From the NCBI GenBank assembly GCA_937923575.1, contig CALDUL010000078.1:1-37655 (forward strand): a stretch of DNA of 37,655 bases. Reading direction: 5' to 3'. Shown here in pieces: positions 6,401 through 21,012 of this stretch; within the stretch, counting starts at the first letter, position 1; every line of letters starts with the position of its first letter. Below the pieces are notes generated by a model. That model did not search any database and was not told where the DNA came from. It saw nothing but the letters and a program-made list of their open reading frames with translations. The DNA is from an uncultured Algimonas sp. Lineage in GTDB: Bacteria > Pseudomonadota > Alphaproteobacteria > Caulobacterales > Maricaulaceae. The position numbers were made by a program, and so were the translations under genes.

Positions 6401-9400
6401 CCACCGACCTGAACGGAACTGGCGACCGTCTTCTGCAGCGACAGGCGCGGCATACGGTCGGCCGTGACCGTCTCGGACACTTCGGGCGAACCCGCATCGC
6501 CACTGTCGGCGGAGGCGAGGTTCGTCACGGAGCCCGCGTCGATATCGGCCTGTGTCACGGCGTAGTCGGCCGTACAGGTCAGGCTCTCGGACGGGGCGAG
6601 CAGCGTTGTCGGACAGACGACGGTATCGATCTTGTCGTCGGTGACGGAGACGCGTTCGGTCAGGGTCTGGTTGCCCGTATTGGTCACGTCATAGGCGTAG
6701 GAGACGATGTCGCCGACCTGGACGAAACTCTCGGTCGTGGCGCGCTTGACGATGGACAGGCCGGGCGCGGCCTCGGTCTCGATCGTGACGCTGTCTGGGC
6801 TCGAAACCGTGTCGCCGCTGCTTGCAGTCGCGATATTGGTCACGAAGCCCGCATCGAGATCCATCTGTGTCACCGTGTAGTCGGCGGCGCACGTCAGGGT
6901 TTCGGTCGGTGCGATCAGCTCTGCCGGGCAGACGACCGTTGCGATCTTGTCGTCGCTCACCGTGACCGGATCGGTCAGGGTGACGTTGCCGGTGTTGGTC
7001 ACGACATAGCTATAGGTCACGATCTGGCCCGCTTCGGTCAGAGCCGTTGCATTGGCGGACTTTGCGATCGTCAGTGATGGCTCTTGCGTGGCGGTCACAG
7101 AGACGGTGTCCGGAGCGGACGGCGTCTGCGTGCCGACCTGTGCGGTTGCGATATTGGTCACAGTGCCTGCATCGAGATCCGCTTGCGTGACCACATCCTC
7201 GCCGAAGCAGGACAGGGTCGCGCCGGGCACGAGGCCTCCGCCTGGCAGGGCTGGGCAGGTGACATCGGCGATGCGGTCATCGGTGATGGCCACAGCGTCC
7301 GTCAGCGTCACATTGCCGGTATTGCGAACGATATACTCATAGGACAGCGTATCGCCGACCGCGGTGAATGTGCTCGACAGGGCGCGCTTGTCCACCGTGT
7401 AGGCGGGCGCGCGGTCACCATTGACGGTCGCGCTCTCGGTCGGTGAGGTCGTCGTGCCGTCCGTGGCGCTGGCCGTATTGGTCACAGTCCCCGCATCGAC
7501 ATCCGCCTGAGTGACCGTGTCGGTACCGGTACAGGTGATCTGCGCGCCGGGCAGCAGGCCGCCGCTCGGCAGGGCTGGACAGGTCACATTCGCGATCCGG
7601 TCGTCGGAGACGGTGATCGCCTGGGTGACGGTCACATTGCCGGCATTGGTGACGATGTATTCGTAAGACAGCTGATCGCCAGCCGCGTCGAACTGCGTGT
7701 CCAGCGCGCGCTTTTCAAGGCTGAGCGCAGGAGCTGTTGCGGCGTTGACCGTCTCGCTGACAGGCGCAGTTTCAATTGTGCCGGAGCGACCCATCGCCGT
7801 GTTGGTGACGGAGCCCGCATCGATGTCGGCCTGGGTGACCGTGTCAGAAGCCGTACAGGTCAGCGTCGCGCTTGGCGGAAGACCCCCTGCCGGGAGAGCC
7901 GGACAGGTGACTTCGGCAATACGGTCGTCCGAGACGGAGACAGCGTCTGTCAGCGTCACATTACCCGTATTGGTCAGCACATATTCGTAGCGCAGCTCAT
8001 CGCCGACAGCGGCGTAGCTGGTGTCGAGCGCGGTCTTGGCGAGGCTCAGCGCGGGCTCCTGCGTGCCGTCGATCGTTGCGGTCGCGGGCGGCGTTGTTGT
8101 CGTGCCGTCCGTGGCGGTCGCGATGTTGGTCACGCTCCCGGCATCGAGATCGGCCTGGGTCACCGTGTCGGAGGCTGTGCAAGTCAGCGTCGCATTCGGG
8201 ACAAGTCCGCCCGCTGGCAGCGCCGGACAGGCGATCGTGCCGATGCGGTCATCCGAGATGGAGAGCGCGTCGGTGACGGTCACATTACCGGTGTTGGTGA
8301 TGGTGTAGCTGTAGTCCAGCACATCGCCGACCGTCGCGAAGTCGTTGCTGCGCGCGGTCTTGACCATGTCGAGCGCCGGATTCTGGTCCGCGTCCACGGT
8401 TTCGGAGACCTGCGTCGACACTGTATTGCCGGAGCGCGCCGTGGCGAGGTTCACAACCTGGCCCGAGTCGATGTCAGCCTGAGCGACCGTATCGGAGCCC
8501 GTACAGGTCAGCGTCGCATTGGGTGCGAGGCCATTTGCGGGCAGAGCCGGGCAGCGCACGTCGTTGATGCGCGAGTCGGTGATTTCGACCGGAAGGCGCA
8601 GGGTGACATTGCCGGTGTTCGTCACGACGAAGGCATAGTCGAGCACGTCACCGACGCTGTCGAAAGAGGCGCTACGCGCGGTCTTCACGACATCCAGCGC
8701 GGGCATTTGCACGGCCGGGATGGTGACGAAGACGGGCGGCGAGGATGCGCGCGGATGCTCCGCATAGGCGTCGTTGGTCAGGCTGCCTGCGTCGATATCG
8801 GCTTGCGTGACCGTGTAGTCGGCCGTGCAGACCTCGATCTGGCCCGGCACGAGATTACCCGTGAAGCAGTCGATGGCACCGATCTTGTTGTCGATGACCT
8901 GGACCGTGTTCGTCAGCGTGACGTTACCGGTGTTCTCGATCTCGAAACGGTAGGTGATCGTCTCGCCGACGGTCGCATAGTCCGGCGTCATGCTCGACTT
9001 GCGCACTTCCAGCGCGGGGTTGGCGTTGGCCGGGATGGTCTCGGAATCGGGTGCCGATGTGACCGTGCCGTCCGTTGCGGTCGCGATATTGGTGACAACG
9101 CCGACATCCAGATTGTCCTGCGTCACGACGAAGTCGGCCATGCAGACAAGGTCCGCACCGGGAGCGAGGCCGCCCGCTGGCAGAGCCGGGCAAACAACGG
9201 ACGGGATGCGGTTGTCCGCCACGGTGATCGGATTGGTGATCGTGACATTGCCCGAATTGGTGACCGTATATTGATAGGTCACGATATCGCCGGGCAGGTT
9301 GAAGTTGATGGTCGTGGCGCGCTTGTCGATCTCTAGCGACGACATACGGGTGGCGAAGACACGCTTCTCAACAGTTGGTGACACAACGGTACCGCTCGTC

Positions 9401-12400
9401 GCCGACGCGACGTTCGTGACCAGCCCCGCATCGATGTCGGTTTGAGTGACAATGTAGTCGGCCGCGCATGTCACGCTCTCGCCCGGCAGCAATTGGCCAT
9501 TCGGCAGAGCCGGACAAGACACGGACGCGATCTTGTCGTCGGCAACGGTCACGGGATCGGTCAAAGTGACATTACCGGTGTTCGTCACGTCGAATTCGTA
9601 TGACACCACGTCACCGGGCGTATCGAAGGTCTGCGTCAGAGCGCGCTTGACGATATTCAATGCGGGACCTTGATCGGCCGAGACGGTCGCCATGTCGGGA
9701 TCCGAGACTGTCGAGCCATTGGACGCGGTCGCTGTATTGGTCACGAAGCCGGCGTCGAGATCGGCCTGCGTCACGAGATAGGTCGCGGTGCAGGAGATCA
9801 TGGCATTGGGCGCAAGACCCGCCATGGGCAGGGCTGGACAGGTCACCGAAGCAATCCGGTCATCGGAGACATCTATCGCGCCGCTGAGCGTGACATTGCC
9901 GGTGTTGCGGACATCGTAGCGGTAGGAGAGCACATCGCCGACGGTATCGAACTGCGTCTGCAGTGCGGTCTTCACGATATCGAGCGCTGGAGCCTGCATC
10001 GCGTCCACGGTCTCGGAGACTGTTGGCGAGGACGTGCCGGGAATGCTGGCCGACGCGAGGTTCGTCACCGAACCTGCATCCACATCGGCTTGCGTCACGG
10101 TGTAGCTCGCCGAGCAGGTCAGCACTGCGCCCGGAGCCAGTCGACCACTCGGAAGCGCCGGGCAGGAGACCGACGCGATGCGGTCATCGGACACGGAAAC
10201 CGCATCGGTGATTGTGACATTGCCGGTGTTCGTCACGTCATAGGCGTAGTCGATGCGCTCGCCCGCCGCTGCGAAGCCCGCACTCAGCGCGCGCTTGACG
10301 ATATCGAGGGCGGGTTGTGGATCAGCGGTAGCAACTTCGGTCACGGGAGAGCTCTGCGTCGTGCCGCTGGTTGCGGTGGCGGTGTTCTCGATCCGGCCTG
10401 CGTCGAGGTCGTCCTGGCTGACCGTATCCGTGCCGGTGCAGGTGATCTGCGCGTTCGGGGCGAGGCCACCGGCCGGCAGCGCAGGGCAGCTGACGGTGAT
10501 GCGGTTATCGGACACGGCGAGCGCGTCGGTCAGGCTGACATTGCCCGTATTGGTGATGACATAGGCATAGGACACCGTCTGGCCCAGCGTGTCGAAGACC
10601 TGCGGATCGGCCGTCTTGGTCATGGAGAGCGAAGGCTGGCTATCAGCCGTCACGGTCTCGGATACCTCTGGCGACGTCGTCGTGCCGTCCGTGGCGCTGG
10701 CCGTGTTGGTCACCGAACCCGCATCCAGATCGGCTTGCGTGATGATGTCGGACGCTGAACAGGTCAGCTGCGCACCGGGCAGCAGGCCACCCGCCGGCAG
10801 CGCCGGGCAGGAAATCGACGCGATGCGGTCATCATTGACAGTCACGGCATCGGTGATGGTCACATTGCCCGTATTGGTGATGACGTAGCGATAATCGATG
10901 ACGTCGCCGACGCTGTCGTAATCGGACTGTGCAGCGGTCTTGGCGATGTCCAGACTGCGAGTCTGGTTGGCGTCAATTGTCAGTGTGTCTGTCACAGGCG
11001 CGAGCGTCGTGCCTGCAGGAGGCGTGGCCGAAACGGTCGCGACATTGGTGACCGAGCCTGCATCGAGATCACTCTGGGTGACAGTGTCGGTGCCGGTGCA
11101 GGTCGTGGACGCACCGGGCGCAAGCGTGGTGACGGGGCAGTTCACAGTCGCGATCCGGTCGTCCGAAACGACGATGTTCGTGACCACGACATTGCCCGTA
11201 TTGGTCACGGCAAATTCGTAGGACAGCGTGTCGCCAACGGCGGAGAAGTCGCTTTGCGGACTTGTCTTGGCAATGGCGAGCGCAGGCGTGCGGGTGCCAT
11301 CAACCGAGGCGGTATCGGTCTGCGAAGGCACGGCTGTGCCGTCCGGGCCGTCGGCAGACAGCGTGGCGGTGTTCTCGACATTACCGGCATCCACATCGGC
11401 CTGCGTGACCGTGTAGTCGGCGGTGCAAACTGTGCTCTGACCGGGCGCTAGCGTGGTGGTCGGGCAAGCCACAGTCCCGGCGAGTGGGTCATCGATGGCG
11501 ATATTGGAGAGCGTCGTCGTACCGATGTTGGCCACATCAAAGGCGAAGGACAGCACGTCGCCCGCATTCGCAAAATTGGTCGAGACGGCCCGCTTGGCGA
11601 AGCTGACATCGGTCTGCGGATTGCCGGTCACCGTTGCGCTCGCGGTCTGGTCTAGCGGCGTGCCGCCGGGCGGTGTGGCCATGGCTGTTGCCGTATTCGT
11701 CACCGTGCCGGCGTCCACATCGGCCTGGGTCAGCGTGTATTCGCCCGTGCAGGTCGCGGTCGCGCCAGGTGCGAGCGTCGTGGTCGGACAGGAGAGCGAC
11801 GGGATCAGCGGGTCGCTGACGCTGATAGCCGACAGAGTGACATTGCCCGAGTTCGTCAGATCGAACGCGAAGCGGAGCGTATCGCCCGCCGCGGCGAAGC
11901 TCGTGTCCACCGCGCGCTTGGCGAAATCGAGCGCGGGCGAAACGGTCGCGTCGACCGTCTCGGACACGGGCGCGGACACCAGCGTATCTTTTTGGGCAAA
12001 GGCTTGATTGGTCACGGAGCCATTGTCGATATCGGCCTGGGTGACGCTGTAATCGGCTTCGCAGACCTGCGTGGAGCCTGGCGTGAAATTGCCGATGAAG
12101 CATTCGATCGTGCCGATCTTGTCGTCCACGACTTCAGTCGTGCCCGTCAGCGTGACGTTGCCGTCATTGCTCAGCGTGAAGCGGTAGGTAACCACATCGC
12201 CGGGCGCGGCGAAAGTCGTGGTCAGGGCTTCCTTGATGACCGACAGCGCGGGCGACTGGTCGGCCGGGATCGTCTCGGAGGTCTGTGGCGAGCTCAGCGC
12301 ACCGCTGTTCGCAGACGCGAGATTGGTCACCTGTCCGGCGTCGATATCGGCCTGTGTGGCAGTGTATTGTGCGGAGCAGGTCAGCGTTGCGGCTGGGGCG

Positions 12401-15400
12401 AGACCACCCGCTGGCAGGGCTGGGCAGGACACGTTCGCAATCAAGTTGTCGGAAACCGTGATCGGATCGGTCAGCGTCGTGTTGCCGGTATTGGTGACGA
12501 CATACTCATAAGTCGTGACATCACCGGGCAGCTCGAAATTCACGTCGGTCGCGGTCTTGAGGACGGACATGGCGGGATTCTGGTCGGCGTCGACTGTCGC
12601 AGTGTCCGTGGCCGCGTCGAGCGTGCCGCCCGCTGGCGTGCCAGTCGCAGTGACGATATTGGTCACGTCGCCCGCATCAATATCGGCTTGCGTGACCGTA
12701 TCCGTGGCCAGGCATGTGACCGTCTCCGTCGGGTCGAGAACGGCGTCGCCATTCCCCTGCCCCGCGACGTCGCAGCTCACCGCGCCGATGCGGTCGTCCG
12801 AGACGTTTAGTGCGGAAATCGCGACATTGCCGGAGTTGGAAATCACGAAGCTGTAGTCCAGCTCATCGCCGACAGCCGCGTAGCTCGCATCCAGTGCGGT
12901 CTTGACGATGGTCAGCGCAGGTGTCTGCGTCGCGTCGACGGTCTCGGTCCCCGTGGCAGGCGCCAGCGTTCCGCCGGCGGGAGTGCCTGAGGCCGTCGCG
13001 TTGTTGACGACAGACCCCGCGTCGAGGTCGGCTTGCGTGACTGTATCGGTCGCGGTGCAGACGACTGTCTCACCGGGATCGAGCGCGGCATCGCCGTTCC
13101 CTTGGGCAGTGACTGCGCAGACGACTGTATCGATCCGGTCATCCGTCACCGCGAGGTCCGCAATGCTGACATTGCCGGTGTTGGACACGGTATAGTCATA
13201 GGTCAGCACGTCATCGACGGCCGTGTATTCGGTCTCGCGCGCGGCTTTGGCGAGCGTGAGAGCGGGCATCTGATCGGCGGAGGTCGTGGCCGTGGCATCG
13301 GGCGAGGTCGTCGTGCCATCAGTCGCGCGGGCTGTATTGACGACCGAACCGGCGTCCAGATCCGCTTGGGTGATCGCATAATCCATGGTGCAGGACAGCG
13401 TCGCATTGGGCGCAAGACCGCCCGCTGGCAGTGCGTCGCACTGCACGGCGCGCGGGGGCTGCACGCGGTCATCATCGACACTGATGGCGGAGGTGATCGT
13501 GACGTTACCGGTGTTCGTCACGACGAAATCATAGGTGACGATTTCGTTCACCGCCGAGAAGGACGCGGCGCGGGCCGTCTTGGTCAGCGAGAGCGCGGGC
13601 GACTGGTCGGCGGAAACGGTCTGAGTGTCCGTGACAGGCGCGAGGGTACCACCTGCGGGCGTGCCGTTCGCCGTCGCGACATTGGTGACCGAGCCTGCAT
13701 CGAGATCGGCTTGCGTAACCGTGTCGGTACCGGAGCAGGTCGTGGAGGCGCCGGGCGCGAGCGTCGTGACAGGGCACGTTACCGAGGCGATCCGGTCATC
13801 TGTCACGGTCAGCGCAGCGATCTCGACATTGCCGGTATTCTCGACATCGAACTCGTAGCGCAGCGTGTCGTTGACGGCGGCAAAGGTCGTATCCAGCGCG
13901 CGCTTGGTAATCGACAGTTCTGGCGACTGCGTGCCGGATACGGTGACCGTATCGGTCGGCGGAACGAGGGTCCCACGCGCAGGCGTACCGGTGGCGGTGG
14001 CGTTATTGACGACCGAGCCAAAGTCCAGATCGGCTTGCGTGACGGAGTAATCGGCCGTGCAAGTCGTGGTCTCGCCAGGCGCGAGCACCGTGACCGGGCA
14101 GGAGACGGACGCGATCTTGTCGTCCGAGATCGACAGGTCGGAAACAGTGACATTGCCGGTGTTGGCGACGACATATTCATAGGAGAGCACGTCGTTCACA
14201 GCCGTGAAGTCGTTGTCGAGCGCGCGCTTGGTTATCGTCAGCGCCGGGCTCGGCCCTTCGGTCTGCGCGCTGGCATCGTCTGTGGCTGCCGGCAGCGTGC
14301 CCCGTGCGGGCGTTGCGCTCAGCGTGGCGGTGTTGGTGATCGGCGTGCCCGCGTCAACGTCCGCCTGGGTGACCGTATAGGTGGCCGTGAAGGTGGTGGA
14401 CTGGCCGACGCCGAGATCGGAGACGGTCGCCGGCGTGATTGCGGACAGAGTGCCCGCACCGTTGTGGACGTCGGAGACCGACAGGGCCGACAGCGAGACA
14501 TTGCCCGCATTGGTCACGACGTAGCTGTAGGTTACCACATCGCCTTCGGCCAGATCGCTGTCCGGCGAGGCCGTCTTGACCAGCGTGGCAAGCGGTTCGG
14601 CCGCGCGCGGGGTGACCGTCTCGTCCGCCGTCGGAGGCGTGAACGTGCCGCCCGCCGGAGTGGCCGACGCCGTCGCCGTGTTCGTGATCGGCGTGCCCGC
14701 GTCGATGTCTGCCTGGGTGATGGTGTAGGTCGCGGTGAAGGTCGCGCTATCGCCCGGCGCGATGGTCGCGACATTGGCGGGCGTGATGGCCGACAGCGCG
14801 CCCGTGCCGGAATGGACATCCGAGACGCCGACATTGTTCAGCGCGACATTGCCGGTGTTGGTCAGGGTATAGCTATAGGTGATGACGTCATCGACGACGA
14901 CGCCGGCTGTCTTGTCGGCGGTCTTGGTCAATGTGGAGGCCGGCTGCGGGTCCTCGACCGAGACGCTCTCGCTATCATTCACCGGATCGAGTGTGCCGCG
15001 CGCAGGCGTGGCGGATACGGTCGCCGTGTTCGTGATCGCCGTGCCCGCATCGATGTCGGCCTGGGTGACGGTGTAGTCGGCCGTGAACTCGACGAAGTCG
15101 CCAACGGCGAGCGACGCGACAGAGGACGGGCTGATCGCGCCCAGCGTGCCCGTGCCATTATGCGCGTCCGTGACGCTCACGCCCGACAGACTGACATTGC
15201 CCGTATTGGTGACGCGGTAGCTATAGGTGATGACGTCGCCGACGGCGACATCGGTCGTGTCGGACGCGGTCTTGGCCAGCGTCATGGCGGGCGCGGGCGC
15301 TTCGACCGTGACGGACTCGGTCGCGGTCGGATCGCTCAGCGTGCCGCGCGCGGGCGTGCCGGTGGCGGTCGCGGTGTTGGACACGGGCGTGCCCGCATCA

Positions 15401-18123
15401 ACATCGGCCTGGGTGATGGTGTACTCGGCCGTGAAGGTCGCGTCGTCGCCGGGCAGCAGGATGGCGACGGATGCGGGCGTGATCGCGCCCAGCGCGCCGG
15501 AGCCACCATGGGCGTCGCTCACGCTGACGTCGGTAATGGTCGTGTTGCCGCTGTTGCGGACCACATAGCTATAGGTGACGACGTCGCCTTCCGCCAGATC
15601 GGCATCCGACGAAGCGGTCTTGGCCAAGCTCAGAGCGGGCGAGGCAGCAGAGACGGCGACGGACTCATCGGCCGTGGGCGGGATCAGCGTGCCGCGCGCA
15701 GGCGTGGCGGTCGCAGTCGCGGTGTTGGTGATCGGCGCGCCCGCATCGACATCGGCCTGAGTGATCTCGTACTCGGCGGTGAACTCGGCGAAGTCGCCGG
15801 GCTCGATCACGGCAACGCTCGCCGGGCTGATCGCGCCCAGCGTGCCCGTACCCGCATGCACATCGGTGATGCTCGCATCGCTCAGGCGCACATTGCCGGT
15901 GTTCGTCAGACGGTAGGTATAGGTGATGATCTGTCCGGCAACGACATCCGTCATGTCCGAGGCCGTCTTGCTCAGCGTGGCCTGCGGATCGGCCGCCTCG
16001 ATTGTGACGCTCTCGTCAGCCGTCACAGCGGCCAGCGTGCCGCGTGCGGGCGTTGCGCTCAGCGTAGCGGTGTTGGTGATCGGCGTGCCCGCGTCAACGT
16101 CCGCCTGGGTGACCGTATAGGTGGCCGTGAAGTCCTGGGTGTCGCCCGGTGCGAGGCTGGCAAGGTTCGAAGGGCTGATCGTGCCAAGGGAGCCCTGTCC
16201 GCCGTGAACATCGGAGATGCTGAGCGCGGTGAGCGTCACGTCACCCGTGTTGGCGACCGAATATGTGTAGGTAATCGTCTGACCCGCTTGAAGATCCGTG
16301 TCGTCGGATGCGGTCTTGGTCAAAACGGCAAGCGGCGCGGGCTCGCCGAGGGTAACGCTGGCATCCGCGGTTGGATTGGTCAGCGTGCCGCGGGTGGGCG
16401 ACAGGTCCGCAGTGGCTGTATTCGTGATTGGAGCCCCGGCGTCGAAATCGGCCTGAGTGACCGTGTAGGTCGCGGTGAAGTCCTGGCTGTCACCGGGTGC
16501 GAGAGTGGCTGTGGCGGGCGTGATCGCGGACAGAGTGCCGGAGCCTGATTGCACATCGGACACCGATGCATCGATGGTGACATTGCCGGTGTTGGCCACC
16601 GTGTAGGTGTAGGTGATGAGATCGCCCTCTTCGGCGTCCGATCCGGGCGACGCCAGCTTGGCGAATGTGGCAGCCGGATTGGGTGCGACAAGCGTGATGG
16701 TTTCGTCGGCGGACACGTTAGCGACCGTACCGCGCTTGGGCGTGGCGGATGCCGTGGCCGTATTGTCGATGGTCGGACCCGCATCCAGGTCGCCCTGCTG
16801 CACGACATAGGTCGCCGTGAATGTCTGGCTCTGGTTCGGGCCGAGGTCATCGCGTTCGGCCGGCGTGATCGCCGACAGCGTGCCAATGCCGGCGTGGACA
16901 TCGGTGATGGTCACATCGTCCAGCGTGATGTTGCCCGTGTTCTGGACCACATAGGTGTAGGTGATGGTATCGCCCGCGTCGACAGCCGTTGTTTTGGACG
17001 CGGTCTTGGTCAAGGTCATGGAATTGTCGGAGTCGGGTCCGGGGATCGAAAGTGTCCCCGAGACATTGCCAAGCGTCCCTTCGGTCGGCGTGGCCGTTAC
17101 ATTGGCGGTGTTCACGAAGACGACATCGTCGTCGATATTGGCCTGAGTGACGGAGTGCTGACCCGAACAGGTCATCGTCTGGCCGGAATTAAGCGCTGTC
17201 AGCGGGCAGCTCACGGCCCCGGTGATAAAGCTGTCGTCCACGACCACATTGGTCAGACGAACCGAGCCGATGTTGGTGACGAGAAAGCTATAGTTGATGA
17301 TATCGCCCACGGCCGAGTATTCCGTGCGGTCGGCGGTCTTCTCGATCGTGATGCCGGGTGCGACTTCCGGCGTGCCGGTCGCGTCCACGCCGTCGCGGAA
17401 GAACCAGGCGTTGTCGCCGCGCGTCGTGCTGGATCCCGTATCCTCATCGCGGATGAAGGGTGTGGTCGATCCCGTGGAGAAGATATTGTCCAGAACATTG
17501 GGCGCCAAATCGAACCAGGCCGTGCTGGTTTCGGTCGTGCCCTGATTGCGGAAGCAGTTTTCGGTGTTCGACACCTGGGTCGTGCCCGTCAGGTTGGTGC
17601 GCTGGACAGAATTGGGCGCCAGGTCCGACAGGCTGGACACGGGCAGGCCGTTCACTTGGAACGACACGTCCTGATAATCGAAATTGCCAGGACAGGCGTC
17701 GGCGTCGCGCACGGTCAGTCGCGCATAGCCTTCGGAGATGCCGCCGCCAAAATATTCCGAACACGTGACTGTGCCGCAGTTCAGCGCCTGTGTTGGGCCG
17801 AGCTGGAAGGTCGGAATTCCGCGGAACGCAGCGGGATCGCCCGTGCCGGCAAAGCCTTGGAACTGGGTCGATGGATTGACGAACTGGTAGTAGATGTTCC
17901 CATTGTCGCCGATCAGCACAAACATCGTGCCGCCCACGGGCGGGTAGGTACTTGGGATCGCGCCGTTGCCATTGGGGACGGTTTCCGTGAACGTCGTCGC
18001 GTGCGCGTCCGTCGCCATCCCCGTACTCAGCATCACCGTTGTCAGACCGCCCAGAACCAGCTGGGCTGCCCGCTTCGTCACGGTTGCAGCCTTAAAACGA
18101 AGTCGCGCTATTCTTGCAGACAT
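457..18123 (-). CDS. Giant secreted repeat protein with C-terminal outer-membrane beta-barrel (about 5,890 aa)
   Basis: One uninterrupted frame encodes a signal peptide (MSARIARLRFKAATV..., hydrophobic core, cleavage near DAHAT) and a unique N-terminal domain of about 230 residues. Then come about 33 tandem Ig-like repeats of 107-116 residues with the DUF7507/DUF11 pattern (GD.I.Y.Y.VTNTGNVT...VTQADLDAGSVTN) and three divergent repeats. The rest is an aspartate-rich DRDGDG segment, an SdrD-B-like domain, an unassigned region and a barrel of about 870 residues ending in Phe (VVGKF), a typical BAM-recognition end. The product should be anchored in the outer membrane; surface display and an adhesive or structural role are inferred. 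Start: ATG at 18123 precedes the signal peptide directly. A TTG at 18132 lies 8 bases after GGAAAGAGG and may be the true start; a GTG at 18165 is less likely. The gene is monocistronic, has a terminator, and faces an HxlR regulator. Confidence 0.9.
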   Translation of the reverse strand: MSARIARLRFKAATVTKRAAQLVLGGLTTVMLSTGMATDAHATTFTETVPNGNGAIPSTYPPVGGTMFVLIGDNGNIYYQFVNPSTQFQGFAGTGDPAAFRGIPTFQLGPTQALNCGTVTCSEYFGGGISEGYARLTVRDADACPGNFDYQDVSFQVNGLPVSSLSDLAPNSVQRTNLTGTTQVSNTENCFRNQGTTETSTAWFDLAPNVLDNIFSTGSTTPFIRDEDTGSSTTRGDNAWFFRDGVDATGTPEVAPGITIEKTADRTEYSAVGDIINYSFLVTNIGSVRLTNVVVDDSFITGAVSCPLTALNSGQTMTCSGQHSVTQANIDDDVVFVNTANVTATPTEGTLGNVSGTLSIPGPDSDNSMTLTKTASKTTAVDAGDTITYTYVVQNTGNITLDDVTITDVHAGIGTLSAITPAERDDLGPNQSQTFTATYVVQQGDLDAGPTIDNTATASATPKRGTVANVSADETITLVAPNPAATFAKLASPGSDAEEGDLITYTYTVANTGNVTIDASVSDVQSGSGTLSAITPATATLAPGDSQDFTATYTVTQADFDAGAPITNTATADLSPTRGTLTNPTADASVTLGEPAPLAVLTKTASDDTDLQAGQTITYTYSVANTGDVTLTALSISDVHGGQGSLGTISPSNLASLAPGDTQDFTATYTVTQADVDAGTPITNTATLSATPARGTLAAVTADESVTIEAADPQATLSKTASDMTDVVAGQIITYTYRLTNTGNVRLSDASITDVHAGTGTLGAISPASVAVIEPGDFAEFTAEYEITQADVDAGAPITNTATATATPARGTLIPPTADESVAVSAASPALSLAKTASSDADLAEGDVVTYSYVVRNSGNTTITDVSVSDAHGGSGALGAITPASVAILLPGDDATFTAEYTITQADVDAGTPVSNTATATGTPARGTLSDPTATESVTVEAPAPAMTLAKTASDTTDVAVGDVITYSYRVTNTGNVSLSGVSVTDAHNGTGTLGAISPSSVASLAVGDFVEFTADYTVTQADIDAGTAITNTATVSATPARGTLDPVNDSESVSVEDPQPASTLTKTADKTAGVVVDDVITYSYTLTNTGNVALNNVGVSDVHSGTGALSAITPANVATIAPGDSATFTATYTITQADIDAGTPITNTATASATPAGGTFTPPTADETVTPRAAEPLATLVKTASPDSDLAEGDVVTYSYVVTNAGNVSLSALSVSDVHNGAGTLSAITPATVSDLGVGQSTTFTATYTVTQADVDAGTPITNTATLSATPARGTLPAATDDASAQTEGPSPALTITKRALDNDFTAVNDVLSYEYVVANTGNVTVSDLSISDDKIASVSCPVTVLAPGETTTCTADYSVTQADLDFGSVVNNATATGTPARGTLVPPTDTVTVSGTQSPELSITKRALDTTFAAVNDTLRYEFDVENTGNVEIAALTVTDDRIASVTCPVTTLAPGASTTCSGTDTVTQADLDAGSVTNVATANGTPAGGTLAPVTDTQTVSADQSPALSLTKTARAASFSAVNEIVTYDFVVTNTGNVTITSAISVDDDRVQPPRAVQCDALPAGGLAPNATLSCTMDYAITQADLDAGSVVNTARATDGTTTSPDATATTSADQMPALTLAKAARETEYTAVDDVLTYDYTVSNTGNVSIADLAVTDDRIDTVVCAVTAQGNGDAALDPGETVVCTATDTVTQADLDAGSVVNNATASGTPAGGTLAPATGTETVDATQTPALTIVKTALDASYAAVGDELDYSFVISNSGNVAISALNVSDDRIGAVSCDVAGQGNGDAVLDPTETVTCLATDTVTQADIDAGDVTNIVTATGTPAGGTLDAATDTATVDADQNPAMSVLKTATDVNFELPGDVTTYEYVVTNTGNTTLTDPITVSDNLIANVSCPALPAGGLAPAATLTCSAQYTATQADIDAGQVTNLASANSGALSSPQTSETIPADQSPALSVIKEALTTTFAAPGDVVTYRFTLSNDGNVTLTGTTEVVDDKIGTIECFIGNFTPGSTQVCEADYSVTQADIDNGSVTNQAFAQKDTLVSAPVSETVDATVSPALDFAKRAVDTSFAAAGDTLRFAFDLTNSGNVTLSAISVSDPLIPSLSCPTTTLAPGATATCTGEYTLTQADVDAGTVTNTATAMATPPGGTPLDQTASATVTGNPQTDVSFAKRAVSTNFANAGDVLSFAFDVANIGTTTLSNIAIDDPLAGTVACPTTTLAPGQSTVCTADYTVTQADVDAGNVENTATLSADGPDGTAVPSQTDTASVDGTRTPALAIAKTSPQSDFSAVGDTLSYEFAVTNTGNVVVTNIVVSDDRIATVNCPVTTLAPGASTTCTGTDTVTQSDLDAGSVTNVATVSATPPAGTTLAPVTDTLTIDANQTRSLDIAKTAAQSDYDSVGDVIDYRYVITNTGNVTITDAVTVNDDRIASISCPALPAGGLLPGAQLTCSASDIITQADLDAGSVTNTASATDGTTTSPEVSETVTADSQPSLSMTKTADPQVFDTLGQTVSYAYVITNTGNVSLTDALAVSDNRITVSCPALPAGGLAPNAQITCTGTDTVSQDDLDAGRIENTATATSGTTQSSPVTEVATADPQPALDIVKRALSAGFAAAGERIDYAYDVTNTGNVTITDAVSVSDDRIASVSCPALPSGRLAPGAVLTCSASYTVTQADVDAGSVTNLASASIPGTSSPTVSETVDAMQAPALDIVKTALQTQFDTVGDVLSYRYDVRNTGNVTLSGAIDVSDDRIASVTCPALPMAGLAPNAMISCTATYLVTQADLDAGFVTNTATASNGSTVSDPDMATVSADQGPALNIVKRALTQTFDTPGDVVSYEFDVTNTGNVTLTDPVTVADDKIASVSCPALPNGQLLPGESVTCAADYIVTQTDIDAGLVTNVASATSGTVVSPTVEKRVFATRMSSLEIDKRATTINFNLPGDIVTYQYTVTNSGNVTITNPITVADNRIPSVVCPALPAGGLAPGADLVCMADFVVTQDNLDVGVVTNIATATDGTVTSAPDSETIPANANPALEVRKSSMTPDYATVGETITYRFEIENTGNVTLTNTVQVIDNKIGAIDCFTGNLVPGQIEVCTADYTVTQADIDAGSLTNDAYAEHPRASSPPVFVTIPAVQMPALDVVKTARSASFDSVGDVLDYAFVVTNTGNVTLRLPVEITDSRINDVRCPALPANGLAPNATLTCTGSDTVAQADIDSGQVVNLATARSGNTVSTQVSETVDADQNPALDMVKTARSNDFATVGDVLDYSYTITNTGNVTVTDALSISDDRIGTIACPALPAGGLVPNATLTCTASDTVTQADLDAGSVTNIATATDGTTTTPPATATIDGTQEPALSLAKTALDTSYAAVGDELRYEYVLTNTGNVTLTDAVSVSDDRIAEVTCPALPAGGLPPSATLTCTASDTVTQADIDAGSVTNTAMGRSGTIETAPVSETVNAATAPALSLEKRALDTQFDAAGDQLSYEYIVTNAGNVTVTQAITVSDDRIANVTCPALPSGGLLPGAQITCTGTDTVTQADVDAGTVTNTASATDGTTTSPTESATVNGDRAPAYTVDKRALSSTFTAVGDTLSYEYIVRNTGNVTLTDAVAITDDRIADVTCPALPGGGLVPGATLSCFGEDVVTQADLDAGTVTNIATAQVGTQTPSAPDTVSVTATQEPSLTIAKSANATALTEAGQIVTYSYVVTNTGNVTLTDPVTVSDDKIATVVCPAELIAPTETLTCAADYTVTQMDLDAGFVTNIATASSGDTVSSPDSVTIETEAAPGLSIVKRATTESFVQVGDIVSYAYDVTNTGNQTLTERVSVTDDKIDTVVCPTTLLAPSESLTCTADYAVTQADIDAGSVTNLASADSGDAGSPEVSETVTADRMPRLSLQKTVASSVQVGGPIYDLTYDLVLENTGNVTLTGLSLIDDLRTTLAPAVIYADPTTTADGPLTGTLNAGYDGAATTELFDGSGALAVGERATVTLTVRVDATIAGPAQGNTAFANAAELSSPVPSNDPSVTPGSGDDLQPTPHPLEDRDGDGAPDIFESFEEDRDGDGIPDALDYDPTGYFYCEENGGILSGGRIAVNGPAGRNSAIGTLNNIVIVEDGTDGFYQFYVTEPGEYELELTYPTTGNVSTARLPETEVLDATSLLPANPAVIGSTEVADTNRLADAGLPANPRFYTRFAFEAGDPSVLANNIPLRDCGVPGLTTTKSVVSGPELDADGRQLLTYALRVENTGETQLNGVSLIDNLQETFGPDRVSLMNLRMTDDSSSNAKIDTRYDGATFAETLDSTSSLAPGDSVTVELDIAVSPDRAGDFVNTVNATALTPLDGSPITASADASVELVPLSDASQLTVTKTAQPRTVQIGDPVLYRIEVTNDSGSTMTDLRITDRLPQGFAFVPGSARVSDGGEPVVSEPLVQSRGVLSWDIALGEDAPLDTLDPGETLAVSLRLLAGPNVEFGAHENQAFAESLRDGSRSEIATAVVDYIPEPSFDCTPVLGRVYDDVNQNGYPDDGEPGLPGVRLATVNGDIITTDEFGRYHIPCASIPDAERGSNFLLKLDDRTLPLAYNVTTENPRVVRATRGKFVKMNFGAAHRPLVRVDLFAADLENGRIRTDAAERAASVLLQARAERADMERALIVYHAEEGELVESAQGKLQVALAMVRDLDGGLTDIALQADWGTHRPADIAPYGTEDGERFVQAGQVFDTDGEQPRPGNRDRIRFGEGEDGRVTRMEPIDGPRGDRSTRLAEDGFGLRQDGDDPVFDGPSVGRRSTGPDASTRPNRLQRWLDWGNATTPYADAMEVETTVSALDTLKRLNAQANVVSDGEGGARIIHAEGYWNYDAYVTRAELRLFEAKSSTRGEPLATATFADGQARLPIIDGVLPRDLSYVLRVYGIDGQGFDETAPKSLDLGEAEFDLTPAEWEGERFTAFGHSTLLVDRLRTPGGTVRVYGRNVSSDTVQVMGQTVRVDEAGRFVAEQILPSGEQSVTIEASDGYRIMRSVDVSARDTFFVAQVEATIGQNIARDADGDRSYEDGRVAFYVRSKLNDRWAVTATADTGEAGLGNLLNGLDDKDVNSLLRRLDPDRYYPTYGDESTIEQDAPTSGRVYARIERDDDYLLWGNYQTQFTDTEFGRVRRTLYGAKLRWDGGGAPTALGDERTELTAFIAEGGSRQGRDVLRGTGGSVYYLRHGDIAIGSEIVRVETRDSVSGLVLESRRLTYGTDYDLDFIQGRVLLTQPLGSTTDDGRLFRDGNQSGNESVLVVDYEYTPVFGASDDAAVYGARVSRWLGDSFKLGATYNHDTDGGAESDLYGIDATLQFAPRSYVKAEYARTEGLGVQAFRSNDGGFTYAAQDRGGVAGQNSADGLALEAAVNFDDFAAIGWDGTTYAYYRNRDAGFAGYSEATDQAIEQFGGGMDIGLSEGLRLKARADITDEQTVGSRSYAEASVEAAVNERVTLRGGVAFSDDSRGNSGTSIGGRVDYKLDDSNSLYAFGQLGLEGDNTRTTDRIGAGAEVRLSKNVLGGGEISTGEDGLGARASLRFEHEDGDESYLAYDLPLNSQLAANLGTLNVGTRQRYGDALSIYGEERFQFADQGLHGLTHAYGIDYSPGNWSFGVSAEIGTVDQFDRESFAGKASWRNERMSAGVSAEWREDENIETGDERRTWLLRSTARYEASDELKLQGKFNLAKSDQSRPDAQLGPQSFNNAEFIEASIAAAYRPIWDDRFNLLAKLVWLDDLSPTSQRFGGQTLDYRQKSMIASVDGSYDVTPRWTLGGKYAYRSGEVTSSRDQLDFTKSEADLLIARLDYHATSKWDATVELRHLDIGSGIITRDGGLAGLYRHVGDNAKIGAGLTWGGVEEQYLSAREEDAVGWFFNVVGKF
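460..3090 (-). other. C-terminal beta-barrel region of the giant protein
   Basis: The last roughly 870 residues alternate polar and hydrophobic residues in short strands separated by D/G/N-rich turns, and the protein ends in an aromatic Phe. The start of the region includes YYPTYGDEST, APTSGRVYARIERDDDYL and WGNYQTQF. I associate these with outer-membrane domains at the C-terminus of large DUF11-type proteins (recalled, not searched). Strand count and pore shape cannot be judged by eye. Confidence 0.7.
4465..4620 (-). other. SdrD-B-like / carboxypeptidase-regulatory-like domain
   Basis: The segment reads GRVYDDVNQNGYPDDGEPGL, then PGVRL, TTDEFGRYHIPC. This matches the SdrD B / prealbumin-like pattern (D.N.NG..D.GE.G..GV.L, then T...G.Y.) that often bridges surface repeats to an anchor. 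The acidic D/N loop is a likely calcium site. Confidence 0.7.
5915..6005 (-). other. Aspartate-rich calcium-binding-like repeats
   Basis: Two adjacent DRDGDG-type motifs (EDRDGDGAPDIFESFEEDRD and DRDGDGIPDALDYDPTG) follow the repeat array. They resemble thrombospondin type-3 / dockerin-like calcium-binding loops. Calcium binding is inferred from the motif. Confidence 0.7.
14303..14392 (-). repeat. Near-identical 90-base tract, copy in unit 9
   Basis: This matches 16043-16132 with one mismatch (14326 versus 16066). The offset is exactly 1,740 bases, which equals five 348-base units. It encodes the second half of the unit (TVTQADVDAGTPITNTATLS). Confidence 0.85.
16043..16132 (-). repeat. Near-identical 90-base tract, copy in unit 4
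   Basis: This is the partner of 14303-14392, with one mismatch in 90 bases. The neighbouring parts of the two units diverge immediately at the downstream end (from 16133), which fits short-patch gene conversion or recent unequal exchange. Confidence 0.85.
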
Positions 18124-18180
18124 CTCAGACAATGTTTCGTCCTCTTTCCGGCCCCGGGCGATCACTCAAGCGCTCAAGAA

Positions 18181-19158: not shown

Positions 19159-19464
19159 TCAGTGCTTAAGCAGCAGCGCCACCAGCTCAGACACTTTCTG
19201 TTCTCGCTCGGCCTTGTCATCGCTGGCAATGGCGTCGGCGAGGCAGTGGTCGGCATGATCGGACAGGAGCTCGCCCTCGACCTTGCGCAGCGCGGCCTGC
19301 ACCGCCTTCACCTGCGTCAGCATATCGATGCAGTAGCGGTCGTCATCGATCATCTTCGACAGACCGCGGACTTGCCCCTCGATACGTGCGAGGCGGCGCG
19401 AGACGCCTGCGCGTCGGTCTCGGCGGGCGCAGTGGCTGCCGTGCGGGCGGGTCTTGTCATTCAT
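19159..19464 (-). CDS. csoR: CsoR/RcnR-family metal-sensing repressor, copper type
   Basis: A 101-residue all-helical repressor of the DUF156 family. Core motifs are RLARIEGQVRGLSKMI, RYCIDMLTQ and LLSDHADHC. Cys45, His70 and Cys74 have the same spacing (25 and 4) as the Cu(I) ligands Cys36-His61-Cys65 of mycobacterial CsoR, and a Tyr precedes the first Cys as in that protein. This favours copper(I) over nickel/cobalt (RcnR) or formaldehyde (FrmR) sensing. The N-terminus has an extra HGSHC cluster of unknown role. The family's apo form binds a GC-centred palindrome, and metal releases it; such a site lies just upstream, between this gene and the divergent three-gene operon. The promoter drawn upstream would give an mRNA starting at or next to the ATG. 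Confidence 0.88.
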   Translation of the reverse strand: MNDKTRPHGSHCARRDRRAGVSRRLARIEGQVRGLSKMIDDDRYCIDMLTQVKAVQAALRKVEGELLSDHADHCLADAIASDDKAEREQKVSELVALLLKH

Positions 19465-19471
19465 AACATTT

Positions 19472-19500
19472 GAGATACCCTATGGGGGTATGCTTGGCAA
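19472..19500 (-). promoter_or_regulatory. Predicted csoR promoter
   Basis: Read on the minus strand, a TTGCCA -35 box (19495-19500) and a TATCTC -10 box (19472-19477) are separated by 17 bases. The CsoR operator fills the spacer. The predicted transcription start falls within a few bases of the csoR ATG (19464), suggesting a leaderless message. Prediction by eye only. Confidence 0.45.
19475..19491. promoter_or_regulatory. CsoR-type operator
   Basis: ATACCCTATGGGGGTAT has 6-base inverted halves (ATACCC / GGGTAT) around a 5-base centre. This matches the TACCC...GGGTA operators known for Cu(I)-CsoR repressors. It lies 11 bases from the csoR start and covers the A and T of the divergent ATG at 19490, so bound repressor would block both promoters. 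Confidence 0.75.
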
Positions 19501-20131
19501 AGCCCTCATAATACTCGGACTGTTGGCGGTGACTGACGCGGCGCATGCCCGGCCCGTGTCCTATGCGGGCGGCTGGACGGTGATGGAGGAGACGGACCGC
19601 GGCGCGAGCGCGGCGATCATTCACTATTCGCCCAGTGCGTTTTACTCGGTCGGGGTGAAAGCCGACTGGGACAGACGCAACGACCTGCTCTTCACGGGCG
19701 GCCAGCTCACCTGGTTGGCCAAGCGCTGGTTCGGCGAAGACTACCAAGCCAATCTCTACATCTGGGGCGCGGCCGGGATCGCCAAGGGTATCGACGACAA
19801 TCCCGGCGAAGAACAACTGGCCGGGCAAATCGGCGTCATGGCCGATTGGGAAACGCGGCGCTGGTTCCTCGGCTACCGCGCGGCGGGGCGCGACTACGGT
19901 TCGCTCGACGCCAGCGCCTTTCACGCCGCCAAGGTCGGGGTCGCGCCCTATATCGGCGATACGGGCGATCTGCACACTTGGCTGATGGTCGAAGTCGATC
20001 AGCGGCCGGAGCTGCGGGACACCGTCGGCGTCACGCCGATGATCCGCTTCTTCAAGGGCGAAGCCCTGCTGGAGGCTGGCTGGAGTTTGACCGACGACCA
20101 GCCCCTGCTTAATTTCCAATATCGCTTCTAG
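19490..20131 (+). CDS. Outer-membrane beta-barrel-like protein of the CsoR-controlled operon
   Basis: A 213-residue protein with a signal peptide (MLGKALIILGLLAVTDAAHA) and a mature part of alternating strands rich in W, Y and G (YSVGVKADWDRR, GGQLTWLAKRWFG, ANLYIWGAAGIAKG), ending in NFQYRF. The terminal Phe and strand pattern indicate a small outer-membrane barrel; no named family was recognised. The ATG at 19490 is chosen because it begins the signal peptide. It lies inside the CsoR operator, so translation may be leaderless; a TTG at 19454 would add 12 residues. It is first of three close genes (9 bases to the next) with metal-handling partners, so a role in copper efflux, binding or envelope protection is inferred from context only. 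Confidence 0.75.
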   Translation: MLGKALIILGLLAVTDAAHARPVSYAGGWTVMEETDRGASAAIIHYSPSAFYSVGVKADWDRRNDLLFTGGQLTWLAKRWFGEDYQANLYIWGAAGIAKGIDDNPGEEQLAGQIGVMADWETRRWFLGYRAAGRDYGSLDASAFHAAKVGVAPYIGDTGDLHTWLMVEVDQRPELRDTVGVTPMIRFFKGEALLEAGWSLTDDQPLLNFQYRF

Positions 20132-20140
20132 GAGACGACC

Positions 20141-20617
20141 ATGATCCGAACGCTTCTCACGATCAGCCTATTTGCCCTCGCCGCGCCGGCGTTCGCGCAA
20201 GACAATACCGCCCATAACAGCAGCACGTCCTACGGCTCCGGCTCACACTTCGGTGACCAGGGGGCAGACCATGCGGGGCATGACCACAAGGCCGACGACC
20301 ACGCCTCCCACACCATGGTGAGCGACCTCGCCCTGACCCGCACGCCGGAGATCGACGCGGCGCTCGCAGCCGGGGGCGAGCCCGTCGTGGTCAAGGTGCT
20401 GGGCGCGGTATGCGACTTCTGCGCCACCGCGATGAACAAGACTTTCGGACGCCGCGACGATGTCTCCGCCGTGCATGTCGATCTGGACGCCAAGACGCTG
20501 AACCTCGTGCTGATCCCCGGCGCCGAGATGGACGACAAGCGCCTGCGCAAGCTGGTCAAGAAATCCGGCTATAAGGCGGATGACATCGCGCGCGGCGCGG
20601 CGCTCTCCCAGCGCTAG
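20141..20617 (+). CDS. Periplasmic His-rich HMA-domain metal-binding protein
   Basis: A 158-residue protein with a clear signal peptide (cleavage after AAPAFA, residue 19). A low-complexity segment follows with seven histidines between residues 25 and 57 (HAGHDHKADDHASH), likely to bind metal. From about residue 80 there is a heavy-metal-associated fold with the CxxC site (CDFC, residues 91-94) and the closing LVKKSGYKADDI. It resembles MerP and periplasmic CopZ-like chaperones. The ATG has a good ribosome site (GGAG at 20131-20134). Lying between a barrel protein and a MerT-like membrane protein under CsoR control, it probably shuttles or buffers copper or a related soft metal in the periplasm. 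The exact metal is not determined by sequence. Confidence 0.85.
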   Translation: MIRTLLTISLFALAAPAFAQDNTAHNSSTSYGSGSHFGDQGADHAGHDHKADDHASHTMVSDLALTRTPEIDAALAAGGEPVVVKVLGAVCDFCATAMNKTFGRRDDVSAVHVDLDAKTLNLVLIPGAEMDDKRLRKLVKKSGYKADDIARGAALSQR

Positions 20618-20625
20618 CCCCTTCC

Positions 20626-21012
20626 TTGGCCGAGCCCCTGACCCGCCGCAGCCTGCTCGCGCCGACGCTGTCGCTATTCGCGAGCACATCGACCCTGCTC
20701 TGCTGCGCCCTGCCCGCACTGCTGGTGACGATCGGTGCGGGCGCGGTCATGGCGGGGATTGCCTCCAACGTTCCGGGCTATGTCTGGCTGACCGAGCGAA
20801 AGGTGCCGTTATTCATCCTGTCGGGCGTGCTGCTGGTCGCCGCGCTGTTCATGCGTTGGCGGTCCCGCAACGCGCCCTGCCCGATCGACCCAGTCGAGTC
20901 CGAAGCCTGCACACGGCTGCGGCGCACCAGCGGCGTGATCCTCTGGGCGTCGGTGGCGATTTATTTGATCGGGGGCTTCTTCGCCTTCTTCGCGGCCGAC
21001 CTGCTGCTCTGA
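20626..21012 (+). CDS. MerT-like small membrane transporter
   Basis: A 128-residue protein with three predicted membrane segments (about 15-45, 60-76 and 103-125). The first contains a vicinal Cys-Cys-x-x-Pro motif (LLCCALPALL, Cys26-Cys27), as in the metal-accepting helix of MerT. Cys85 and Cys95 lie in the loop between segments 2 and 3, again recalling MerT, which has a second cysteine pair. MerT takes mercury from periplasmic MerP into the cell; here the partner upstream is an HMA protein controlled by a CsoR repressor, so copper is as likely as mercury. The start is taken as TTG at 20626, 8 bases after the previous stop, without a strong ribosome site, so coupled translation is likely. 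No merA or mercury regulator is nearby. Confidence 0.7.
   Translation: MAEPLTRRSLLAPTLSLFASTSTLLCCALPALLVTIGAGAVMAGIASNVPGYVWLTERKVPLFILSGVLLVAALFMRWRSRNAPCPIDPVESEACTRLRRTSGVILWASVAIYLIGGFFAFFAADLLL

Follow-up and report, generated by a model that had tools for sequence, protein, structure and literature searches.

A probable copper-handling system of outer-membrane barrel, HMA protein and MerT-like protein, found under two kinds of copper-type regulator in marine Proteobacteria

What does a copper-type repressor control in a bacterium where no copper ATPase can be found? The question is raised by contig CALDUL010000078.1 of an uncultured Algimonas sp. (assembly GCA_937923575.1), a stretch of 37,655 nucleotides which we call the window and which is one of the 122 contigs of a 2.58 Mb genome, 85% complete. 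In this window a csoR gene faces, across a gap of 25 bp, a trio of genes separated from each other by 9 and 8 bp, which apparently supply each envelope layer with one protein, namely an outer-membrane beta-barrel, an exported protein with a heavy metal-associated (HMA) domain and a MerT-like protein (Table 1). The arrangement had been singled out by a first-pass annotation made from the sequence alone, which read it as mer-type transport parts joined to copper sensing; all four genes lie where that annotation had placed them, and the finding of MerT-like and HMA proteins under a copper-type sensor agrees with its reading. The comparisons reported here suggest that the trio is very probably an undescribed copper-handling system, and that it deals with metals of the copper group is highly likely.

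The window CsoR passes the curated cut-off of its family (PF02583, 96.8 bits against 22.8) and carries Cys45, His70 and Cys74 in the C-x24-H-x3-C spacing that the first-pass annotation had recognized as exactly that of Cu(I) CsoR, with all three residues aligning to those of the solved CsoR 4m1p. It is the sole CsoR-family gene found in its genome. Type-2 sites of known CsoR proteins have the form TAC-N9-GTA with G-tracts, and Cu(I) makes the repressor release them (PMC3902906, in its accessible part). In the window and in 12 relatives chosen for their divergent csoR, a site of the form ATACC-N7-GGTAT lies between csoR and the barrel gene and runs into the start codon of the latter; the whole genome of the window holds only two such sites, the one at the locus being the sole G/C-rich one and the other being A/T-rich. 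For a wider view we used a named-genome set (the best 80 of 336 barrel relatives), which has some genomes in common with a family sample of 137 genomes, and looked for TAC-N9-GTA with at least six G/C in N9 at the barrel or operon start of the 80 loci. Of the 33 csoR loci, 27 have the operator where the operon begins; it is found there in none of the 47 csoR-less loci, three of which are cut short, and only 14 sites of this form were met elsewhere in 944,916 bases; these counts, together with the operator at the start of the trio, bear out the proposed control of the operon by CsoR. In one near-complete genome (G046, locus L038) the barrel start codon after the operator reads ATA, where ATG is conserved elsewhere.

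A promoter can also be proposed in the window, with a -35-like TTGTCA 16 bp ahead of a -10-like TACCCT whose end lies 8 nt before the ATG, although the scoring is weak, since -10 elements match three to four of the six bases of the consensus hexamer. Such a placement would put the transcription start at or beside the ATG, so that the trio mRNA is probably leaderless or nearly so.

Is this set of genes more than a chance encounter? The neighbourhood survey that the first-pass annotation had called for points to a conserved set. In the family sample the barrel occurs in 45 and the MerT-like gene in 69 of the 137 genomes, and the order barrel-HMA-MerT is kept in all 30 barrel loci examined of those 45, with the reservations that in L051 the contig breaks off in MerT and that HMA and MerT match only partly in L061, where there is a run of N. 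The named set spans Litorimonas, Oceanicaulis, Glycocaulis, Hyphomonas, Henriciella, Parvularcula, Aquisalinus, Hirschia and Micavibrio, among others, and reaches the gammaproteobacterial Halieaceae. There the HMA gene adjoins the barrel in 77 of 80 loci, the remaining three being at contig ends, and MerT stands beside the pair in 73; four of the seven misses fall at contig ends, leaving L139, L147 and L151 as true absences among the 76 loci with enough sequence, which makes the barrel-HMA pair the firmer core. Two of these, L139 and L151, from Micavibrio-like genomes, show the MerT-less arrangement HMA-barrel-HMA-CsoR. The csoR gene is present in 33 of the 80 loci (18 times directly ahead of the barrel and overlapping it by 4 bp, five times divergent, three times after the HMA or MerT gene and seven times otherwise upstream), its Cys, His and Cys ligands being kept in 33, 32 and 33 of the 33. 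Of the 45 barrel-bearing genomes in the family sample, 27 have csoR no more than about 1 kb from the barrel and 17 have none at that distance, while in G054 a contig end cuts the locus. Among named relatives, Litorimonas cladophorae (L086) shares the divergent csoR-trio arrangement, and Hyphomonas polymorpha (L127) is csoR-less. That four unrelated genes came to lie together by chance is thus rejected by the neighbourhood and operator counts and is next to impossible, since Alpha- and Gammaproteobacteria keep the same order, along with 4-bp overlaps and operators. Mobile or plasmid cargo was likewise rejected: a search of plasmids found no barrel, and the four stretches of viral contigs that match the peptide pattern encode no barrel relative.

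What, then, stands over the trio where csoR is absent? Most csoR-less loci have a Cys-rich and apparently exported open reading frame (ORF) upstream of the barrel gene, at a distance of 32-101 bp (in one case 343 bp), that ends in PP(R/K); between the last Cys of the ORF and this motif there are 37 to 44 residues, and the motif has four prolines in 31 of 42 cases, mostly as (D/E)PPPP(R/K). The 80 named loci divide into 39 with this ORF only, 30 with csoR only, three with both, five with neither (L100, L131, L147, L155 and L156, all with room upstream) and three cut by the contig end at that place (L085, L090 and L154), a count to be taken as descriptive because the motif was framed on the same loci where it was counted. 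The ORF family spans loci L087-L160, 39 of them csoR-less and three with csoR. A comparable element is CutF, whose Cys motif and proline-rich end let copper open a stem over the Shine-Dalgarno (SD) sequence and so switch on the next gene, as described in the accessible part of PMC9973294. By criteria taken from the same portion of that paper (a small upstream ORF on the same strand that has a Cys motif and, among its last 15 residues, PP; a few of our ORFs exceed its size of 150 residues), a CutF-like ORF heads 39 of the 47 csoR-less loci, against 13 of 2,045 other ORFs taken as control. An SD-like motif precedes the barrel gene in 35 of the loci folded, and the prediction pairs it in 32 of them, compared with eight of 16 in a rough control of other starts, and the upstream folds have a mean z of -1.76 over 41 sequences, 14 of them below -2.

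The name CruR was also tried for this upstream ORF and rejected: no R(A/G/S)PP motif occurs in the ORFs adjoining the barrel in the 80 loci, and the PP(R/K) ORFs scanned reach at best 14.1 bits against PF11162 (DUF2946), whose cut-off is 23.7, so that CutF fits better. Sensors of the CruR type shut down their own operon with copper (PMC9426467). An idea that the two sensors of the trio act with opposite signs was dropped, since CutF switches its target on with copper (PMC9973294, same portion). On a tree of the barrels the regulator label changes seven times, at least four of these changes being forced by well-supported branches; the tree is a quick one, midpoint-rooted and without bootstrap, with eight of 81 rows unlabelled and the three loci with both regulators scored as CsoR. 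Two unrelated copper-type sensors that exchange on one target are, in our opinion, the strongest reason to regard copper as the signal. Furthermore, as CsoR is released by Cu(I) and CutF is activated by copper, both kinds of regulator would be expected to turn the trio on when copper is present.

The trio proteins themselves are relatives, as far as profile scores tell, and not filed members, of known Pfam and NCBIfam families. The HMA protein narrowly misses PF00403 (24.3 bits, cut-off 24.8) and stays far from the MerP model TIGR02052 (12.5 bits, cut-off 92.55), whereas its domain matches 1p6t, a solved chain of copper-ATPase HMA domains, with an E-value of 3.2e-05, the scores being nearer to CopZ/CopA than to MerP. 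The first-pass annotation had described a periplasmic CxxC protein with a tail of seven histidines; the CxxC is there (kept in 77 of 77 named loci), and so are seven histidines in the first 80 residues, but the histidines stand between the signal peptide and the domain, forming an N-terminal linker and not a tail. Signal peptides of this protein and of the CutF-like ORFs were judged by eye. As for the third protein, its score against PF02411 lies below the cut-off (23.4 bits, 32.9 required), for which reason we call it MerT-like; at an E-value of 0.05 that model is matched by three of 16 aligned members, the window protein included. A vicinal Cys pair together with a second Cys pair is a hallmark of MerT. 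The vicinal pair that had been noticed, Cys26-Cys27, is accompanied here by a further pair, Cys85/Cys95, and across the named loci CC is kept in 73 of 73 proteins and the second-pair cysteines in 72 and 71 of 73. A MerT-like match was also seen on a Vibrio alginolyticus plasmid (L171), in a gene annotated as heavy metal-associated, beside a GDCCVxC protein and within a copper-resistance island, a location that we count in favour of copper.

The outer-membrane protein had been announced as small and barrel-like, and AlphaFold2, run with 22 aligned relatives, returned a barrel of twelve strands with a mean pLDDT (predicted local distance difference test) of 89 and a pTM (predicted template modelling score) of 0.79. 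At an E-value of 0.05 none of 22 members matches Pfam and only one gives a match, a weak one, to NCBIfam, so this is a predicted 12-strand family absent from both collections. A known-family identity of the barrel was rejected, there being no Pfam match and the closest folds being generic barrels, namely the autotransporter domain of BrkA (Z 17.3, root-mean-square deviation (rmsd) 2.6, 178 aligned residues) and the porin KdgM (Z 13.8); a fold search of this kind proves no function and excludes no family. The copper protein PcoB (7pge) gives Z 11.6, with rmsd 3.0 over 143 residues, and autotransporter barrels and porins score higher. Among the 80 loci His45 is conserved in 78, and His162 and Met166 in all. 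Since His162, Trp164 and Met166 alternate along one predicted strand, they probably face the lumen, and the conserved His/Met set may line it.

The genomic context raises the question of how these cells deal with copper otherwise. The first-pass annotation had remarked on the lack of a CopA ATPase, CusCBA and mercury reductase, and this holds both for the window and for its whole genome at 85% completeness, where there is no TIGR01511 copper ATPase at an E-value of 1e-30, no TIGR00914 pump of the resistance-nodulation-division type at 1e-100 and no MerA over its cut-off (best score 340 bits against 454). In good genomes (at least 90% complete and at most 5% contaminated) a copper-type ATPase occurs in 18 of 32 with the barrel versus 55 of 63 without it (Fisher p 0.0015, a rough value because the genomes compared are related and not independent; the model used does not separate export from CcoI types), and in five of 15 where csoR is linked to the barrel. 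Caulobacter is likewise without CopA, and there an outer-membrane receptor and a periplasmic chaperone feed the aa3 oxidase (PMC12617631, accessible part). By this analogy the trio could deliver copper to periplasmic or membrane cuproenzymes, as in oxidase assembly, and have no part in tolerance; we regard this as a distinctly improbable explanation, as no oxidase or assembly gene was noticed among the recurrent neighbours (which were not systematically annotated) and copper-on regulators are ill-suited to supply.

How could the trio work? The order of the genes, the operator, the conserved ligands, the predicted barrel fold and the exchange of regulators are read from the sequences; concerning the metal, the direction of its flow and its hand-over between proteins, we infer the following. 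Without copper, CsoR would sit on its 17-bp operator. Since this site overlies the trio's -10 region and start codon, at a distance of 10 bp from the csoR start, the repressor could block both csoR and the trio. Cytosolic Cu(I) or Ag(I) would then bind the Cys-His-Cys site and CsoR would leave the operator, allowing a leaderless or nearly leaderless mRNA to be made for the three proteins. The MerT-like protein would move Cu(I) across the inner membrane via its two Cys pairs, the HMA protein would hold and ferry it in the periplasm with its CxxC and His linker, and the barrel, with its conserved His/Met set, would be the outer-membrane end of the relay. Because both kinds of regulator are expected to respond to copper by switching on, an outward or sequestering flow is favoured, and we give about an even chance to copper-induced tolerance with net flow in that sense.

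Several observations weigh against this scheme, besides the descriptive nature of the PP(R/K) count and the limits of the ATPase comparison given above. The operator site is lacking in six of the 33 csoR loci (L092, L094, L096, L098, L101 and L141), and the consensus stem built from 12 sequences places seven pairs over the stop codon of the upstream ORF and leaves the SD uncovered, with a weak covariation signal in which two pairs show a double change. The known MerT proteins are importers, and a passive carrier of this type would need a driving force to export metal. Directly upstream of the trio, seven of the 80 loci, all of the Maricaulis/Oceanicaulis kind, have on the same strand a gene like that of a TonB-dependent receptor, an import family, as found with a Pfam-confirmed receptor as query. 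In three other loci a CXXC...RAPP (CruR-like) ORF lies about 3 kb upstream of the barrel (L097:3322-3768, L105:3862-4266 and L108:3228-3710). The resemblance to an importer, the receptor-like genes and these CruR-like ORFs would all suit copper uptake, in which the metal enters through the barrel, travels on the HMA protein in the manner of MerP and is brought into the cytosol by the MerT-like protein, for cuproenzymes or storage. We consider this unlikely, if the most serious of the alternatives: copper relieves repression by CsoR, and an importer controlled in this way would drive its own production; the CutF-like ORF, too, should act copper-on, and no cytosolic sink is seen in the operon. 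In L097, L105 and L108 the CruR-like ORF is followed by a different ORF of about 700-740 residues, and the trio there has a PP(R/K) ORF of its own.

A further complication came from a sister cassette. Eighteen family genomes with the MerT-like gene and without the barrel of the window have another barrel of about 287 residues (loci L078-L081 and L173-L190), beside which the HMA and MerT-like genes stand in all 18, and no genome of the 137 has both barrels. Its model (pLDDT 77) matches the COG4313 channel 4rl8 (Z 24.8, 237 aligned residues) and FapF (Z 25.0); three members were scanned, of which one exceeds the cut-off of Phenol_MetA_deg. The putative HMA-MerT module is thus paired with two different outer-membrane barrels. 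A MerR-family match occurs near the sister barrel in 10 of 19 loci, and the MerR of L079 is nearest to the mercury regulator 5crl (97.8 bits), with CueR close to it (92.2). MerA exceeds its cut-off in six of the 18 sister-cassette genomes versus one of the 45 with the window barrel, G134 being the sole sister genome where it lies near the cassette, on the same contig and within 2 kb. As the sister cassette is found in part with a mercury-type MerR and MerA, these parts may serve mercury, another point on the unfavourable side. The trio could accordingly transport a soft metal other than copper (mercury or silver) or a broad range of thiol-binding metals, with copper sensing being incidental. 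Such an explanation seems to us rather improbable, given the rarity of MerA in genomes with the window barrel, the copper types of the regulators at trio loci and an HMA domain nearer to CopZ/CopA than to MerP. Perhaps one barrel pairing belongs to a mercury setting and the other to a copper setting.

Returning to outward copper flow, a bolder version may be put forward tentatively, although as a whole it is unlikely to hold in every part: a MerT-type carrier running outwards would pass copper to the HMA chaperone and on to a dedicated 12-strand barrel, an ATPase-free route that would replace CopA in lineages without a copper ATPase, the cassette having been re-wired repeatedly between DNA-binding and nascent-chain copper sensors.

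Compared with known systems, the trio shares with MerT-MerP of mer operons (PF02411; TIGR02052) a periplasmic CxxC HMA protein beside an inner-membrane protein with CC and a second Cys pair, but its proteins fall below the family cut-offs, an outer-membrane barrel is added, no MerA was found, and the loci have CsoR or the CutF-like ORF where mer has MerR. It resembles CsoR-copZA in the Cu(I)-type CsoR, the type-2 operator and an HMA protein as target, and differs from it in that no P1B ATPase was found in the operon or the genome of the window, the HMA protein is exported and the targets of CsoR are envelope proteins. The csoR-less loci recall CutF (cutFOG of Rhodobacter) and CruR (DUF2946, Bordetella) by an ORF that combines a signal peptide and a Cys motif with prolines near its C-terminus, and perhaps by the SD-like motif of the next gene in a predicted stem; however, that ORF has PP(R/K) instead of RAPP, stays below the DUF2946 cut-off and is absent from the window, and the trio is not named as a target in PMC9426467 or PMC9973294, as far as the accessible text of these papers goes. 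With PcoB/CopB it has in common a barrel in a copper context, whereas the window barrel is without a Pfam match and many non-copper barrels score higher structurally.

The first-pass annotation knew of no named system with this set of genes, and the literature search is in accord, as no title or abstract among the matches listed describes it, with subscription journals mostly outside its coverage; the combination of CsoR, MerT and heavy metal-associated domain gave no match, and the word MerT is absent from the main texts of PMC6769254, PMC9426467 and PMC12914433. The trio, if it handles copper as proposed, would extend a transport module familiar from mercury resistance by an outer-membrane component and a copper-type switch. 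The set occurs in many Alpha- and Gammaproteobacteria of marine origin, among them genomes where no copper ATPase was found. It also offers a natural experiment, since one target is controlled by a repressor in some species and seemingly by a nascent-chain sensor in others, and makes the exit or entry of copper in cells without CopA testable through one small operon.

Table 1. Features of the csoR-trio locus (positions refer to the window)
Feature	Position	Strand	Basis or remark
csoR, Cu(I)-type CsoR repressor	19159..19464	-	PF02583 match, alignment with solved CsoR 4m1p
Inferred promoter of the trio	19454..19481	+	-35 TTGTCA 19454-19459, spacer 16, -10 TACCCT 19476-19481
CsoR type-2 operator ATACCCTATGGGGGTAT (TAC-N9-GTA)	19475..19491	.	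Overlaps the start codon of the barrel gene
Gene for predicted outer-membrane 12-strand beta-barrel, 213 aa, signal peptide, uncatalogued family	19490..20131	+	AlphaFold2 prediction
Gene for exported HMA-domain (CxxC) protein, 158 aa	20141..20617	+	7-His linker between signal peptide and domain
Gene for MerT-like protein, 128 aa, TTG start	20626..21012	+	Cys26-Cys27, Cys85/Cys95; inner-membrane location inferred from family resemblance

Some minor features of the surroundings may be added. In three loci a further gene comes right after csoR (L063:3548-4348, L075:10155-10901 and L076:6977-7735); the one of L063 contains a MauE domain and matches glutaredoxin weakly, and those of L075 and L076 look alike by eye. 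In the window, the locus is directly preceded by a gene for a repetitive and apparently secreted protein of 5,902 residues (457-18165, minus strand), opposite which long antisense open frames are found.

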